This document shows positions 15,313 through 21,019 of a DNA stretch of 64,000 bases, piece after piece. The translations under genes and the position numbers were made by a program. Under the pieces are notes generated by a model. The model saw only the letters and a program-made list of their open reading frames with translations, did not search any database and was not told the origin of the DNA. This DNA comes from Bombiscardovia coagulans. Lineage in GTDB: Bacteria > Actinomycetota > Actinomycetes > Actinomycetales > Bifidobacteriaceae. Positions within the stretch are counted from its first letter, which is position 1; each line of letters opens with the position of its first letter. Location: positions 62,001 through 126,000 of the forward strand of contig NZ_MWWS01000009.1 of the NCBI RefSeq assembly GCF_002259585.1, in the 5' to 3' direction.

Positions 15313-16416
15313 TCACAAAGCCATACCAGAACGCGCCAGCCAATCCACATAGAAGAGAACAACTGCTATGAGGACAAAGATTAATTCAATCATCCAAAAC
15401 CGAACCACGACCTTTGACTCAGGCCATCCCAAAAGCTCAAAATGATGGTGGATTGGTGCCATCTTAAAGACCCTTTTGTGAGTTAGTTTAAAGAAACCCA
15501 CCTGGATGACATCAGAGCATGTTTCCATTACAAACAGCCCTCCCATGATAACCGCCAACAGCTCAGTATGAGTAGCTATAGAAAGGGCAGCAAAAAGTCC
15601 TCCTAGAGCTAACGAACCGGTATCGCCCATAAAAATAGAGGCTGGATTAGTGTTGTACCACAAAAAACCAAAACAAGCTACTGCTGCGCAGCAGGCAATA
15701 ATTGTCAGATCTAAGGGATCTGAAACAGCATAAGCATGACCAGCGTGACCAGCACCTTTGAGGTGGTAGGACTCCCAAAATGCTATGAGAATATACCCAG
15801 TGAAGGCTATCATCGAAGAACCCGAAGCTAGACCATCTAGACCATCAGTCAAATTGACAGCGTTACTCCAGGCTGTCATGAGCAGGTTAACCCAGAGAAC
15901 GAAAAGAATGATAGCAACGGCTTTACCGGCAAATGTGAAAGAAATGACTGGTTGCTCCACAAACGAAATACCCGCTTGAGCACTAGGGAAGCCTGTTTTA
16001 GTGGGTAACAACAACGCTAAGACTGCATATATTGTTGCCAAAATGAACTGACCAATAAACTTACCTGCAACCGATAGACCCAGATTTTGTTTTTTGGTAA
16101 CTTTAATGAAGTCATCAATAAAACCCAGCAATCCCATGGATAGCATCGCAAACAACACCAGCATGGCCGACTGAGATGGCTTATCACCCCGGGCGAAATA
16201 CCTATACAAGGCAGACCCCAACCAACCTAATACGATAGCTAGGTTGATAATGAGTCCCCCCATTGTCGGTGTTCCACGCTTAATCTGATGCGACTTAGGA
16301 CCGTCTTGACGGATATACTGCCCGTAATGACGGCGTTGCAGTATGTGTATCAGTAACGGCGTACCACCGAAAGAAACGATCAGCGAGATGACGATGCCTA
16401 TGATGAGGGAAATCAC
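15313..16416 (-). CDS. mraY: phospho-N-acetylmuramoyl-pentapeptide transferase
   Basis: This integral membrane enzyme transfers phospho-MurNAc-pentapeptide to undecaprenyl phosphate, giving lipid I. Motifs in order: KRGTPTMGGLI, NLTDGLDGLASG, FMGDTGSLALGG and MAPIHHHFELLGWPE, among about ten membrane helices. The frame can begin at 16446, but GGAG stands seven bases before a GTG at 16416. That GTG overlaps the murF stop by 4 bases (GTGA), as elsewhere in this cluster, so 16416 is chosen (367 residues). Confidence 0.95.
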   Translation of the reverse strand: MISLIIGIVISLIVSFGGTPLLIHILQRRHYGQYIRQDGPKSHQIKRGTPTMGGLIINLAIVLGWLGSALYRYFARGDKPSQSAMLVLFAMLSMGLLGFIDDFIKVTKKQNLGLSVAGKFIGQFILATIYAVLALLLPTKTGFPSAQAGISFVEQPVISFTFAGKAVAIILFVLWVNLLMTAWSNAVNLTDGLDGLASGSSMIAFTGYILIAFWESYHLKGAGHAGHAYAVSDPLDLTIIACCAAVACFGFLWYNTNPASIFMGDTGSLALGGLFAALSIATHTELLAVIMGGLFVMETCSDVIQVGFFKLTHKRVFKMAPIHHHFELLGWPESKVVVRFWMIELIFVLIAVVLFYVDWLARSGMAL

Positions 16417-17969
16417 CTTGTTACTCCAAATCTTTTGCCCTGCCAACGCTCAGCCAAGTTACATAGACCAGAGAAATGCGACCCCTTGAGCAAGACCACA
16501 CTTCCGGGATGTTCACTGGCCAGCTTACGCACTATCTGATCTGCCTCATCTGTATCTGCGGCTTGGAATAGTGCTAGAGCTGCTGAATTCCCAGCCTCTC
16601 CACCAACCTGCACCTGAGCACCCTCTACCATAGCTTGTGCCATGACTGAAAGCTCACCCCGCCTGCCACCAACAGCCACTAACGCATCCACATTCAATTG
16701 AGCGCAGTATGCACCAACATCACGATGCAAAGCCAGAGTCTGCTCGCCTAGCTCGAGCATTCCCCCCAGTACAGCAATTCGATAGGTACTGTCTTGCGTC
16801 TTATCTTCGGCGTTTCCCCATGTCGACAAAGCCGTAAGACCGGCCTTCATGGAATCGGGATTCGCATTAAAAGAATCGTCAATGAGTGTAAATTCAACGT
16901 CTTCCACATCTACATGACTGATAGCCATCCTATGCGGACTAACGAAACCAACATCTGAGAGAACTTGTGAAATCTGCTCAGTTGATAGGCCCAATTCATG
17001 AGCCACAGTAGCGGCGGCCAACGCGTTGACAACATTATGAACACCGCTGATGTTGAGTTTGCTGTCTACAGCTGACTCCCCCGCTGCTAAAAGCTGAAAA
17101 CTGGGATGGTCTGCATCATCAGTACGAATGTTACTTGCACTCATATCTAGCTGCTGCTGAGGTCTGCTACCATCAGCGAGGCCGAACCACAGCACCCGCC
17201 CTGGAGCCAGTTTGTCCATTGCTGCTACCCGCTCATCATCTGCATTGAGGACGCTGATGCCTCCCGGCAGCAGTCCTGTGATGAGTTCGCTCTTGGCTTG
17301 TGCTATGCGATCCACAGAACCGAAGACACCCAAGTGTGCTACACCAACTTTGAGCTCAACCGCTATGTCCAGAGGCACAATCGAAGTCAAGTAAGCCAAA
17401 TCTCCCACTTGACTGGCACCCATTTCTGCCACTAGAAAGCGAGTAGACTCATTGACTCGGAGTGCAGTTAGGGGCAACCCTATTTCATTGTTAAACGAAC
17501 CAATTGGAGCCACCGTTGGACCAAGTTCTCTAAGCATAGCTGCTAGCAAGTCTTTAGTCGTCGTTTTTCCCACAGATCCGGTGATACCAACAACTTCAAA
17601 CGGGGTAGGCAGAGCCCGTCGTCGTTCGAGATTGTGGGCTGCCAAAAGCCCCAATGCTTTCACTGTATCGTTTACGACTACCTGTGGAAGAGACACATGT
17701 TCAACGATGTGGTCAACTAGAGCTCCACAAGCGCCCTGTTTGGCAGCTGTCTCGATAAAATCATGACCATCCACATGCTCCCCTGGTATAGCCACAAATA
17801 ATGAACCGTCTTGCGCCTGTCGGGAGTCAGTAACGACACTATGGACAAGTACGTCCGTGTTATCACGATCATGAATCGCAGTTGCCTGCTTCAGCATCCG
17901 ACCATAGGTCACCTGCGCTATTTCCGTTAGACTCACAGGTATCATTCCTGGCCGTTTAGCCTCTACCAT
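16413..17969 (-). CDS. murF: UDP-MurNAc-tripeptide-D-alanyl-D-alanine ligase
   Basis: The enzyme adds the D-Ala-D-Ala dipeptide to complete the UDP-MurNAc-pentapeptide. It has an N-terminal domain with VTDSRQAQDGSLFVAIPGE, the ATP loop GITGSVGKTTTKDLL, GASQVGDLAYL, and the C-terminal DDSFNANPDSM motif diagnostic of MurF. About 518 residues from the ATG at 17969, which has AGAGG five bases upstream; an in-frame GTG lies two codons earlier. It overlaps mraY by 4 bases. Upstream lies the MurE-like gene, as in a standard murE-murF order. Confidence 0.95.
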   Translation of the reverse strand: MVEAKRPGMIPVSLTEIAQVTYGRMLKQATAIHDRDNTDVLVHSVVTDSRQAQDGSLFVAIPGEHVDGHDFIETAAKQGACGALVDHIVEHVSLPQVVVNDTVKALGLLAAHNLERRRALPTPFEVVGITGSVGKTTTKDLLAAMLRELGPTVAPIGSFNNEIGLPLTALRVNESTRFLVAEMGASQVGDLAYLTSIVPLDIAVELKVGVAHLGVFGSVDRIAQAKSELITGLLPGGISVLNADDERVAAMDKLAPGRVLWFGLADGSRPQQQLDMSASNIRTDDADHPSFQLLAAGESAVDSKLNISGVHNVVNALAAATVAHELGLSTEQISQVLSDVGFVSPHRMAISHVDVEDVEFTLIDDSFNANPDSMKAGLTALSTWGNAEDKTQDSTYRIAVLGGMLELGEQTLALHRDVGAYCAQLNVDALVAVGGRRGELSVMAQAMVEGAQVQVGGEAGNSAALALFQAADTDEADQIVRKLASEHPGSVVLLKGSHFSGLCNLAERWQGKRFGVTR

Positions 17970-18063
17970 TTTCACCTCTCGTACGTGCCTATTCCTTCAT
18001 TTAGAGGAGGAAGAGTTCCTTATCATTCATCACAAAATAGGAGAACTAGTCTCAATGTTCCAT

Positions 18064-19125
18064 TCATGTCAACTCTTGCGAAGCCTCAAGAGCACTACGA
18101 ATATGACTACGTTTAACGCCTGCAGCCATTGTCATCGCTATGTTCAAGGAAAGCTCCTCTGTTTGGGAAGGATCATCGCTATGCATAGTCTGCCTTGCTA
18201 TTTCATCAGTCATATCTGAGGGGTGTGCCACCTGTAATTGCGAGCTGAGTGCAAAGCCATAATGCCGGGCCACAGAATTGAGACGATTATGCCGCATCTC
18301 ATGTAAGCGACCAACAGGACCTATTGCCCGGGAATGCTGTTCTTGACCTGCTGGCACACCTAAAACGTCAATGTGGACACCTTGTAGAGCATCGGCCTGC
18401 ATGCTTGCACTATCAACAGCAATGACAACCGCAGCTGCACCATCTTCCAAACAGACGGACAAGGCTCGCTGCACGTCAAACATGTTCAATGGCACTTCCA
18501 TGTCTAAGCTTCTGTCAAGAGAGGTGAGTTTGTGCTTACTCAGCAATCCAACAGGATTGCCGAGCGTATGTAGAAAGTCAGCTAACTGCTCAGCAGCTGC
18601 ACTAGTATCTTCACCAACAAGAGCAAAAACTGCTAAAGAAGCCGAAGGATCGCCAGCTGCTTTCGAAAGGACCTGACCTAACTTTGCGGCATCTAAATCA
18701 CCAACTAACGCCGGTATACTCAGTTCACCTGAATAACGTTTAGCTATTTCTGGGGGCAGCAGTACTGCATACGCCCCACGCAACTCAGCCTGCCGAAGTA
18801 TGTTTGACACATCTTCTGCACCCGGCATAGAGTCAATGGCGTCGTGACTATCACCTAAGTCTGTCTCGGCTGCATGAGAAGACTCAGTATCATCACTAAT
18901 ACCTTGGCTTCCTTCTGTTAGAGCTAAACGTAGCTGGTCCGTTTTAGTATCTATGTCCCTTAAAAAAGGTAGGTACAGTGACCCAGGCCTCACAGATGCC
19001 AAATCATCGACAAAAGAAGTGATAGTAACCTCTTCAGCATAATTGGGAACTAGCTTGAGACCATAGTGACTACGCAAATAGCCTAGAGTCATTCGCTGAG
19101 AAATTGACTCGCTCAACGCGCTCAT
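18064..19125 (-). CDS. degenerate MurE-like protein lacking the ATP-binding loop
   Basis: This 353-residue protein occupies the place of murE between ftsI and murF. Residues 33-54 (VTITSFVDDLASVRPGSLYL) resemble the Mur ligase N-terminal domain pattern of MurE. Residues 163-197 align with the MurE central-domain start, but where MurE has GTNGKTTT there is GEDTSAAA (171-178), so the P-loop lysine is lost. Residues 233-257 recall MurE's 'EVSSHAL...G..FD' segment. The C-terminal ligase domain is missing, and residues 72-105 are an acidic insert. GAGGTGG precedes the ATG. Catalysis is very unlikely. A structural or regulatory role, or slow decay, is possible; a functional MurE must lie elsewhere. 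The homology is my own reading. Confidence 0.75.
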   Translation of the reverse strand: MSALSESISQRMTLGYLRSHYGLKLVPNYAEEVTITSFVDDLASVRPGSLYLPFLRDIDTKTDQLRLALTEGSQGISDDTESSHAAETDLGDSHDAIDSMPGAEDVSNILRQAELRGAYAVLLPPEIAKRYSGELSIPALVGDLDAAKLGQVLSKAAGDPSASLAVFALVGEDTSAAAEQLADFLHTLGNPVGLLSKHKLTSLDRSLDMEVPLNMFDVQRALSVCLEDGAAAVVIAVDSASMQADALQGVHIDVLGVPAGQEQHSRAIGPVGRLHEMRHNRLNSVARHYGFALSSQLQVAHPSDMTDEIARQTMHSDDPSQTEELSLNIAMTMAAGVKRSHIRSALEASQELT

Positions 19126-19204
19126 ACTTCCACCTCTTCCTGAGACGGGAGCAAACGCTTCTGCTCGGCTACTCGTTTGCCTTGCTCTGTGTCACTCATT
19201 CTAA

Positions 19205-21019
19205 TCACCATTCAACAGGAATAGCATCTGTGCGAGGCGACGAGGGTGGCACTTCATATTTCTGCATAAGGAATTCACCAATTTGTGCAAATACAGGACC
19301 TGCTGTTAAACCTCCGAAGGTACCCTGCGGATCCTTCATCACTACGGTAACCACAAATCTAGGATTATCAGCAGGAATTATGCCCGACCAATCGCTCACA
19401 ATTGATGTCAGCCCGCCGTTCTTACCAGGCACCTCAGCCGTTCCAGTTTTTGATGCTACCCTATAACCATCAACTGAGGCCACATTTTTGAACTTCTCGG
19501 CAACTGACTCCATACCATTCATTACTTGACCAGCAACTTGCTCATCAATAACTCGAACTGGCTGTTTCGCAGTTTCCTGATTCGTTTTACCATCAACATC
19601 AGTGACCGTTTTAATGAGGCTTTGCGAGTTGCGTACACCTTTATTGGCAATTGTGGAGATTGCATTGGTGAGTTGAATTGCATTTGTTGCATACCCCTGG
19701 CCAAACAAAACTGTGTTACGGGTACGACGGTCCCATGCCTGAGGACTCGTCAACAAACCTCGAGATTCTCCTTGCAAACCCAAACCTGAAGGTTGCCCGA
19801 TACCGAATTTTGTCAAGTAATCGTACCTCATCTGGTCCGTATACTTATCACTTGCCATTACCATACCGACATTTGAAGAATTTTGTAGGATTCCTGCCAT
19901 AGTCCAACGTTCTGGCTTGTGATTGTTGGCATCGCGGTACTCTTGTCCATCAAACTTCAGGTGATCTGGCACAGTGAACTGATCTGTCATATGGCGGACA
20001 TTCTCTTGCAGCATACCGGAAAGTGTAATTGTTTTACCAATCGAACCAGGTTCAAAAGTTTGCGTAACCACTAACGGAGGATTCATCTTCGCTTCTACAC
20101 TTCCAGCAGAACGGTTCTCAGTATCTGCCAAGGCAATAATCTGCCCTGTCGCACAGTCCTGAACTACAGCCATTGCCCATCCAGCTTGATAGGTCGCCTT
20201 ACCATCTGCCAAGGCTTTCTGAACATACCACTGTACATCACCATCAATAGTCAGTCGTACATCCTTCCCGTTTACTGGCTGCTTCGACTGTGTTTCTGTT
20301 CCGGGAATTTGTTGGCCTTGACCACCCTGCTGGTAGATTTCATACCCATCTTTACCGGTAAGAAGACCGTTTTCCATATATTCAATACCTGCTACGCCTT
20401 TTCCAGTAGCATCCACTCCACCAATGAGCGATCCCATAAGATCACCATGAGGATATGAACGCTGGTTGCTCAGTTCTGCAGATATAACACCAGCGAGATT
20501 AAGTTTGTCGATTGACCTCTTTACCTGTGGGGTGACATCTTTTTTAATAATGACATAGCTGCCTTTGCCACTCAGTTGGGCCCCAAGCTCCATAGCATTC
20601 AAACCTAGCTCTGGAGCAAGTAAACGAGCAACGGCTGCTGGACCACTAACCCCCAGTGGTTTTCCATTAATTTCATGGCAGTACCGCTTGGTCTGTTGGG
20701 TGCATGCGACAGGAACAAAGTCGCCAGCTGCCTTTGGAGAACCTACGATAGTATACCGTTCTAGACTTTGAGCTAAAACCATGCCGTTAGCATCAAGAAT
20801 GCGACCTCGCTGCGCTCGCAAGGTACGAGGAACAGTCCTACTTTTGGTCGCAGCCTCAGCTGTGCTGCTCCCGTCGAAGAGCTGAATCCATGCGAGCTTA
20901 CCGAGAGCAACAACCGCCACGAGAGACAAAATCACAGCAATAACCGTAGAACGCTGAGCAAAGGTAACCAGACTGTCATTACTTGTACCCTTCTTAGCGT
21001 TCCGCCGCTTATTACTCAA
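19205..21019 (-). CDS. ftsI: FtsI / class B penicillin-binding protein (septal transpeptidase)
   Basis: The 604-residue protein cross-links septal peptidoglycan with FtsW. It has a basic cytoplasmic tail, one membrane helix (about 28-46), a dimerisation domain (RTLRAQRGRILDANG) and a transpeptidase domain. The active-site SxxK is SIGK (near 326), SxN is in SSNVGM (near 380) and KTG is in SKTGTAEVPG (near 523). The start is a TTG overlapping the ftsL-like stop by 4 bases. It is supported by GGAGGGGG 6 bases upstream and by the lack of another early start. No PASTA domains are seen. Confidence 0.95.
   Translation of the reverse strand: MSNKRRNAKKGTSNDSLVTFAQRSTVIAVILSLVAVVALGKLAWIQLFDGSSTAEAATKSRTVPRTLRAQRGRILDANGMVLAQSLERYTIVGSPKAAGDFVPVACTQQTKRYCHEINGKPLGVSGPAAVARLLAPELGLNAMELGAQLSGKGSYVIIKKDVTPQVKRSIDKLNLAGVISAELSNQRSYPHGDLMGSLIGGVDATGKGVAGIEYMENGLLTGKDGYEIYQQGGQGQQIPGTETQSKQPVNGKDVRLTIDGDVQWYVQKALADGKATYQAGWAMAVVQDCATGQIIALADTENRSAGSVEAKMNPPLVVTQTFEPGSIGKTITLSGMLQENVRHMTDQFTVPDHLKFDGQEYRDANNHKPERWTMAGILQNSSNVGMVMASDKYTDQMRYDYLTKFGIGQPSGLGLQGESRGLLTSPQAWDRRTRNTVLFGQGYATNAIQLTNAISTIANKGVRNSQSLIKTVTDVDGKTNQETAKQPVRVIDEQVAGQVMNGMESVAEKFKNVASVDGYRVASKTGTAEVPGKNGGLTSIVSDWSGIIPADNPRFVVTVVMKDPQGTFGGLTAGPVFAQIGEFLMQKYEVPPSSPRTDAIPVEW

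Follow-up and report, generated by a model that had tools for sequence, protein, structure and literature searches.

A catalytically dead MurE homologue between ftsI and murF in nearly all Bifidobacteriaceae, with a putative non-catalytic role in the Mur pathway

MurE is the UDP-MurNAc-L-Ala-D-Glu:diamino-acid ligase. Among the described systems closest to the locus reported here, the bifunctional MurE-MurF fusion of Bordetella (8f5d) physically couples a MurE body with MurF and with MurG, which the fusion binds (PMC6420597). An interaction network between mycobacterial Mur synthetases and division proteins is likewise reported (PMC3605390). CwlM, a cytoplasmic amidase homologue, activates MurA in mycobacteria; it has a demonstrated partner, control by phosphorylation, and an enzymatic function that is not the essential one (PMC4946905). 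The angiosperm protein PAP11 is derived from MurE and has a non-wall role as a peripheral component of the plastid RNA polymerase, where its C-terminal domain makes contacts (PMC12681378); alignment with the profile described below shows that it retains the P-loop (NGKTTT).

The window analysed here is a stretch of 64,000 nucleotides from Bombiscardovia coagulans (NCBI RefSeq assembly GCF_002259585.1, contig NZ_MWWS01000009.1, positions 62,001 to 126,000). With ftsI on one side and murF on the other, it encodes on its minus strand a MurE-derived protein that we call the relic, whose reading frame runs from an ATG at 19125 to a stop at 18064 (Table 1). The relic resembles MurE (TIGR01085; M. 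tuberculosis 2wtz/2xja) in its domains 1 and 2 and in its gene position, but has neither P-loop nor ligase domain, and its carbamyl-lysine and substrate residues are mostly replaced. It differs from the Bordetella fusion in being a separate gene with an inactive MurE body, and from PAP11, a longer, eukaryotic protein whose contacts are made partly by a C-terminal domain that the relic does not possess. CwlM is comparable by analogy only, as another actinobacterial wall-enzyme homologue, being related to amidases and not to Mur ligases. Literature on bifidobacterial MurE and the dcw cluster, essential genes and inactive Mur proteins, including PMC5514069, PMC4255298, PMC7231273, PMC6327494 and PMC12844806, contained no description of the relic in the portions available, supplements aside.

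Table 1. Features of the relic locus, in window coordinates.
Feature	Position	Strand	Details and basis
MurE-derived pseudoenzyme CDS	18064..19125	-	353 aa; MurE domains 1 and 2, without ligase domain; ORF, translation, profile and fold matches
Domain 1 equivalent, about residues 1-143	18697..19125	-	Gap counts, pLDDT
Central-domain equivalent, about residues 145-353	18067..18693	-	VIA-align against 2xja; alignment with MurEs
Former P-loop GEDTSAAA, residues 171-178	18592..18615	-	Aligned to MurE GTNGKTTT
Relic-specific motif LHTLGNP, residues 185-191	18553..18573	-	L, H, L, G, N, P invariant in 42/42 and 63/63
Ribosome-binding region 5' of ATG	19126..19145	-	Read from sequence
murF, downstream neighbour, P-loop intact	16413..17975	-	ORF and family match
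ftsI, upstream neighbour	19205..21019	-	ORF

Upstream of the ATG, a purine-rich stretch containing GGAAGAGGTGG can be read from the sequence. The promoter and terminator scan performed at chance level, with 8 found against 9.0 expected and 8 against 6.4, respectively. Domain 1 of the relic carries an acidic insert of lowered model confidence (about residues 60-106, window 18808-18948). Of 81 sequences in a named set, 79 have a gap there and only the window relic and that of B. xylocopae possess the insert; it occurs in 5 of 42 sequences of a second set.

Single-sequence searches barely recover the ancestry of this protein. The window relic matches no Pfam family up to E 10, including Mur_ligase_C, and within NCBIfam it matches PRK11929 (the MurE part) at E 2.4e-7 and murE at E 1.1e-4; its score of 21.2 bits on the MurE model TIGR01085 lies below the curated cut-off of 257.3. 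The 42 orthologues behave similarly, with none matching a Pfam Mur family at E 0.01, 38 matching PRK11929 and 27 matching murE. A profile built from them reaches M. tuberculosis MurE and chloroplast PAP11, both at E 1.1e-15, and E. coli MurE at E 3.9e-6. An AlphaFold model, computed from 63 sequences (the window relic and 62 of 80 named loci, near-identical ones removed), has a pLDDT of 87.9 and a pTM of 0.84; confidence is low at residues 1-7 and reduced at about 60-100 and at 261-270. Its top Foldseek matches are PAP11 (8r6s_Q, E 3.7e-13) and then mycobacterial MurE (E 5.0e-13). VIA-align places model residues 4-350 onto residues 26-373 of M. tuberculosis MurE (2xja_A, a chain of 502 residues in the structure library), with Z 21.6, rmsd 4.0 and 282 residues aligned.

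Since the match ends at 2xja residue 373, the relic comprises MurE domains 1 and 2 without the ligase domain, its C-terminus coinciding with the end of the MurE central domain. The preliminary description had recognised a 353-residue MurE homologue between ftsI and murF, with GEDTSAAA in place of the P-loop GTNGKTTT and no C-terminal ligase domain. Coordinates, fold and profile agree with it, as does alignment with 28 intact MurEs for the P-loop, and the comparison with MurE by profile and AlphaFold that it had proposed yielded a structural match to a Mur ligase. By fold, sequence and position, the relic is a descendant of the MurE usually found between ftsI and murF. In a MurE tree it sits on a long branch whose position is not fixed, and for this reason we argue its descent from gene position and profile similarity.

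The loss of catalytic capacity extends well beyond the P-loop. We compared 18 diverse relics, chosen from the 42, with 28 intact MurEs in E. coli numbering (E. coli, 7 outgroup cluster MurEs, 7 from family genomes that have no relic, 12 second MurEs described below and 1 from the draft genome G058). G119, K120, T158, T159, E183, S185, S186, R193 and K225 are each present in 28/28 intact MurEs. Among the relics, E183 and R193 are never retained, the latter position being alanine in 17/18; G119, T158, T159, S186 and K225 survive in one relic each, the K225 column lying in a poorly aligned stretch; and K120 and S185 survive in two each. Of the seven residues G119, K120, T158, T159, E183, R193 and K225, each relic retains at most one. 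The window relic has none of T158, T159, E183, S185, R193 and K225, which we take to be the substrate residues and carbamyl-lysine of E. coli MurE. The first P-loop glycine (G116) is kept in 17/18, yet GxxGK[ST] occurs in 0/80 named orthologues and 0/42 of the second set. The proposal that the cluster retains a MurE without catalytic activity is thus borne out, and to it we add that the relic is a family-wide orthologue that has mostly lost its substrate-site residues as well as the P-loop.

These losses bear on whether the relic could still sense precursor levels by binding UDP-MurNAc-peptides, as the preliminary description suggested, or UDP-MurNAc. Domain 1 and the overall fold are retained, and residues 33-51 are well conserved (0.69), as such a sensor might require. 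However, ATP binding and most known substrate contacts are gone, the MurE substrate site having been replaced in nearly all of the 18 relics, so the suggestion of peptide binding loses support. The evidence argues against retained UDP-MurNAc-peptide binding, and we regard a sensor of either kind as a distinctly improbable role.

In place of the old active site, the relics have acquired invariant residues of their own. The alignment of 42 rows has 21 invariant columns and that of 63 rows has 26, among them L185, H186, L188, G189, N190 and P191. Y119, A165, F167, H186, L188, N190 and P191 are invariant in relics and not conserved in MurE; G229 and D253 are common to both, and their invariance is probably structural. 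Conservation across the 81 named-set sequences (overall mean 0.49) is low at the old P-loop (0.33 at 171-175), at 196-199 (0.34) and at 238-245 (0.40), and is higher at 184-191 (0.90), 335-338 (0.83), 226-231 (0.77), 250-253 (0.59) and 157-164 (0.55). Judged from predicted secondary structure, not coordinates, the conserved turns would lie opposite the old active site, although the helix-to-strand turn at 289-297 on the same edge departs from this pattern (0.38). In the central domain, the conserved surface thus seems to have shifted away from the nucleotide and substrate side towards the helix-to-strand edge across from it (LHxLGNP, EDG), and also to the C-terminal helices. The invariant polar residues along that edge (H186, N190, E227, D228, D253) might be read as a new active site, but MurE, too, commonly has D253 and an acidic residue at 227, and the edge placement is itself predicted. 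A new enzymatic activity seems to us very unlikely.

The relic is retained across almost all of the family. Profile searches found it in 177 of 189 Bifidobacteriaceae genomes and in every one of the 161 that are at least 90% complete, with no internal stops among the matches listed; the relatives set gave 52 of 61 family genomes. The 12 misses, each in a genome no more than 89% complete, fall in g4 (4), g5 (4), g9, g10, g15 and one g16 draft at 76%. A FastTree phylogeny of MraY, MurF, FtsI and FtsW (FtsW in only 6 rows; g9 and g15 not placed) groups 34 relic-bearing loci in a single clade (0.988) and 7 relic-less loci from g4, g5 and g10 in its sister clade (0.998), alongside 7 outgroup loci. 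The sister clade has the cluster without the relic, and in the four genomes with a readable junction (G035, G044, G045, G056) ftsI abuts or nearly abuts murF. In g4, g5 and g10, all seven of the MurE loci that were read encode an intact MurE (GTDGKT) away from that junction; the MurEs of this sister clade (L189, L194, L213, L215) form a third lineage. A full-length MurE occupies the position of the relic in the 7 sampled outgroup loci.

Gene order was examined in the best 80 of 95 candidate loci of a named scan, drawn from Bifidobacterium, Gardnerella, Pseudoscardovia and unclassified family members. A script recovered the order ftsI-relic-murF in 75/80, and reading the coordinates gave the same order in the other five, which had been missed through over-extended relic ORFs (L095, L116, L151), an over-extended murF ORF (L110) or an unexpected place (L113). 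Apparent relic fusions in G152 and G160 (frames of 976 and 657 aa) were rejected, as these frames are over-extended across ftsI in another frame. Of the short frames outside the family, the two that were read (G487, G290) were also set aside, being likely truncations near contig ends. In a search of 394 genomes across the class, the top score outside the family among the matches listed was 82 bits; the window genome, which alone represented the family in that list, scored 379, and 203 genomes had no match. Other dead MurEs are possible elsewhere in the class.

Selection acts strongly on the relic over short distances. Close pairs provide our main figure because dN/dS across all pairs is near saturation. 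In 36 such pairs from 11 B. asteroides-type loci, the relic has a median dN/dS of 0.056, compared with 0.127 for murF, 0.101 for ftsI, 0.057 for mraY and 0.102 for rsmH, with the relic below murF in 36/36, ftsI in 26/36, mraY in 19/36 and rsmH in 34/36. Across 352 other, mostly near-saturated pairs, the relic evolves faster (0.647, where murF has 0.459 and ftsI 0.598); its value is lower than that of murF in 58 pairs, of ftsI in 129, of mraY in none and of rsmH in 30. Close relatives thus show a strongly constrained protein and distant ones a more labile one, in which the core is fixed and long inserts vary.

A decaying pseudogene or passenger ORF, kept merely by its operon location, could account for the loss of catalytic residues and of a whole domain, the variable inserts, the faster change than murF in distant pairs, and a sister clade that has the cluster without the relic. 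Nevertheless, we find this exceedingly improbable given the presence of the relic in all good family genomes, without internal stops among the matches listed, its low close-pair dN/dS, its 26 invariant columns and confident single fold, and its retention in all seven genomes of the reduced genus g13 (0.6-0.9 Mb). The family survey and dN/dS comparison that the preliminary description had called for therefore uphold its view that this is not a fresh pseudogene. Loss of catalytic residues combined with purifying selection in close pairs marks the relic as a pseudoenzyme.

Genus g13 also bears on a possible partnership with the division machinery. The preliminary description had raised a scaffold role for FtsI, and a cytoplasmic adaptor of FtsI/FtsW might couple precursor supply to the septum. 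The relic adjoins ftsI in every relic locus read with ftsI in the cluster, and across 79 named loci its partial distance correlation is strongest with ftsI (0.67, against 0.37 with murF), a descriptive value and not a statistical test. However, in the four g13 loci read (G038, G050, G222, G226), rsmH, relic and murF adjoin or overlap one another, and neither ftsL nor ftsI was detected. One SEDS protein and two transpeptidases were counted in each of six of the seven g13 genomes; in the seventh, which is 87% complete, the counts are none and one. The SEDS/PBP pair left in G038 and G050 corresponds in gene order to the RodA/PbpA block of the window genome, and the window FtsI as query found no match in these two genomes at E 1e-5. 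Since g13 keeps the relic and the four loci read have no dcw ftsI, FtsI scaffolding is unlikely as its core role, and we give this adaptor model only a small share of our belief. The relic seems not to need dcw FtsI, and its linkage with murF persists. As a separate matter, the absence of ftsL and ftsI from the cluster at L055, L056, L229 and L230 (g13), together with a single, RodA-like SEDS protein, bears on the mode of division in this genus.

The persistence of murF linkage even where ftsI is lost also points to wall synthesis, and so away from a co-option comparable to that of PAP11. By analogy, a MurE-like protein might serve outside the wall, as both sequence and fold searches place PAP11 among the leading matches of the relic, and a peripheral polymerase role for angiosperm MurE is documented (PMC12681378). 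Yet the similarity to PAP11 reflects shared MurE ancestry, and PAP11 has kept the P-loop and contact-making domain that the relic has lost. A role outside wall synthesis is, in our estimation, quite unlikely.

If the relic does not catalyse, an active MurE should lie elsewhere, as was proposed from the window alone, and a genome search located one. The window genome has one further MurE, an intact protein of 527 aa whose P-loop reads GITGTKGKTTT; its gene, at about G000:C15:48188-49771, lies beyond the window, roughly 30 kb away from the relic. Each of the 52 relic-bearing genomes in the relatives set also carries a MurE match at another place; in 51 of them the E value is 1.2e-76 or lower, and in G058 it is 4.1e-51 (31% identity). 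The open frames at these matches are at least 480 aa, except in G032, where the gene starts at a contig end. In a sampled tree, 12 second MurEs form a lineage distinct from the 7 outgroup cluster MurEs, and this separation makes displacement of the cluster MurE likely, rather than a simple move. Two further loci deserve mention. The sole MurE match of G058 (draft, 87% complete; L196:4738-6282) is of a distant type and is followed by a glycosyltransferase-like gene, and matches at G033:C29:47278-50400 suggest two adjoining second-type MurE genes.

The second MurE is probably of the L-Lys/L-Orn type. An L-lysine MurE model gives it 374 bits, and two models of DAP ligases give 257 and 229; its best score of 731 is on another model also named DAP ligase, below the cut-off of 762, and for this reason the specificity stands as a prediction. 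Bifidobacterial wall chemistry supports it, as does a diamino-acid ligase reportedly described in B. globosum in 1977 (cited in PMC12844806). At L077:7189-10734, outside the window, the second MurE is followed by a 412-aa protein and then by a 237-aa Asp/Glu racemase (PF01177, 1.4e-42). No Pfam family matches the 412-aa protein; its relative in L200 gives a weak hit to an ATP-grasp family that falls short of the cut-off. The two genes after the second MurE may constitute a D-Asp cross-bridge cassette.

On balance, we favour the view that the relic is a family-wide, catalytically dead MurE that now serves as a putative non-catalytic partner of the cytoplasmic Mur steps. A second MurE, probably of L-Lys/L-Orn type, would have taken over catalysis in the ancestor of the relic-bearing bifidobacteria, and the old cluster MurE, freed from catalysis, may have come to work through protein contacts. 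We favour such a role because the catalytic site has been lost, new invariant residues have appeared and linkage with murF is maintained. The relic would most likely bind one or more cytoplasmic Mur proteins, whether MurF, encoded beside it, or the new MurE, MurG or MraY. Contacts of this kind are made plausible by MurE-MurF fusions and the mycobacterial Mur network. It might act as an adaptor or as an activity switch, by analogy with the control of MurA by CwlM. More tentatively, and with less than even confidence, we propose that after this takeover the relic became a dedicated and probably essential adaptor of the Mur pathway, acting through the new LHxLGNP face independently of FtsI and FtsW.

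A gene in a well-known operon of a major human gut family is not the enzyme that its position implies. Because a MurE with intact catalytic residues is encoded elsewhere, annotation of murE by position would misassign the pathway in Bifidobacteriaceae. If the relic is indeed a non-catalytic organiser, it would provide a bacterial test case for the old idea of Mur enzymes as a physical complex, and may offer a bifidobacteria-specific handle on wall synthesis.
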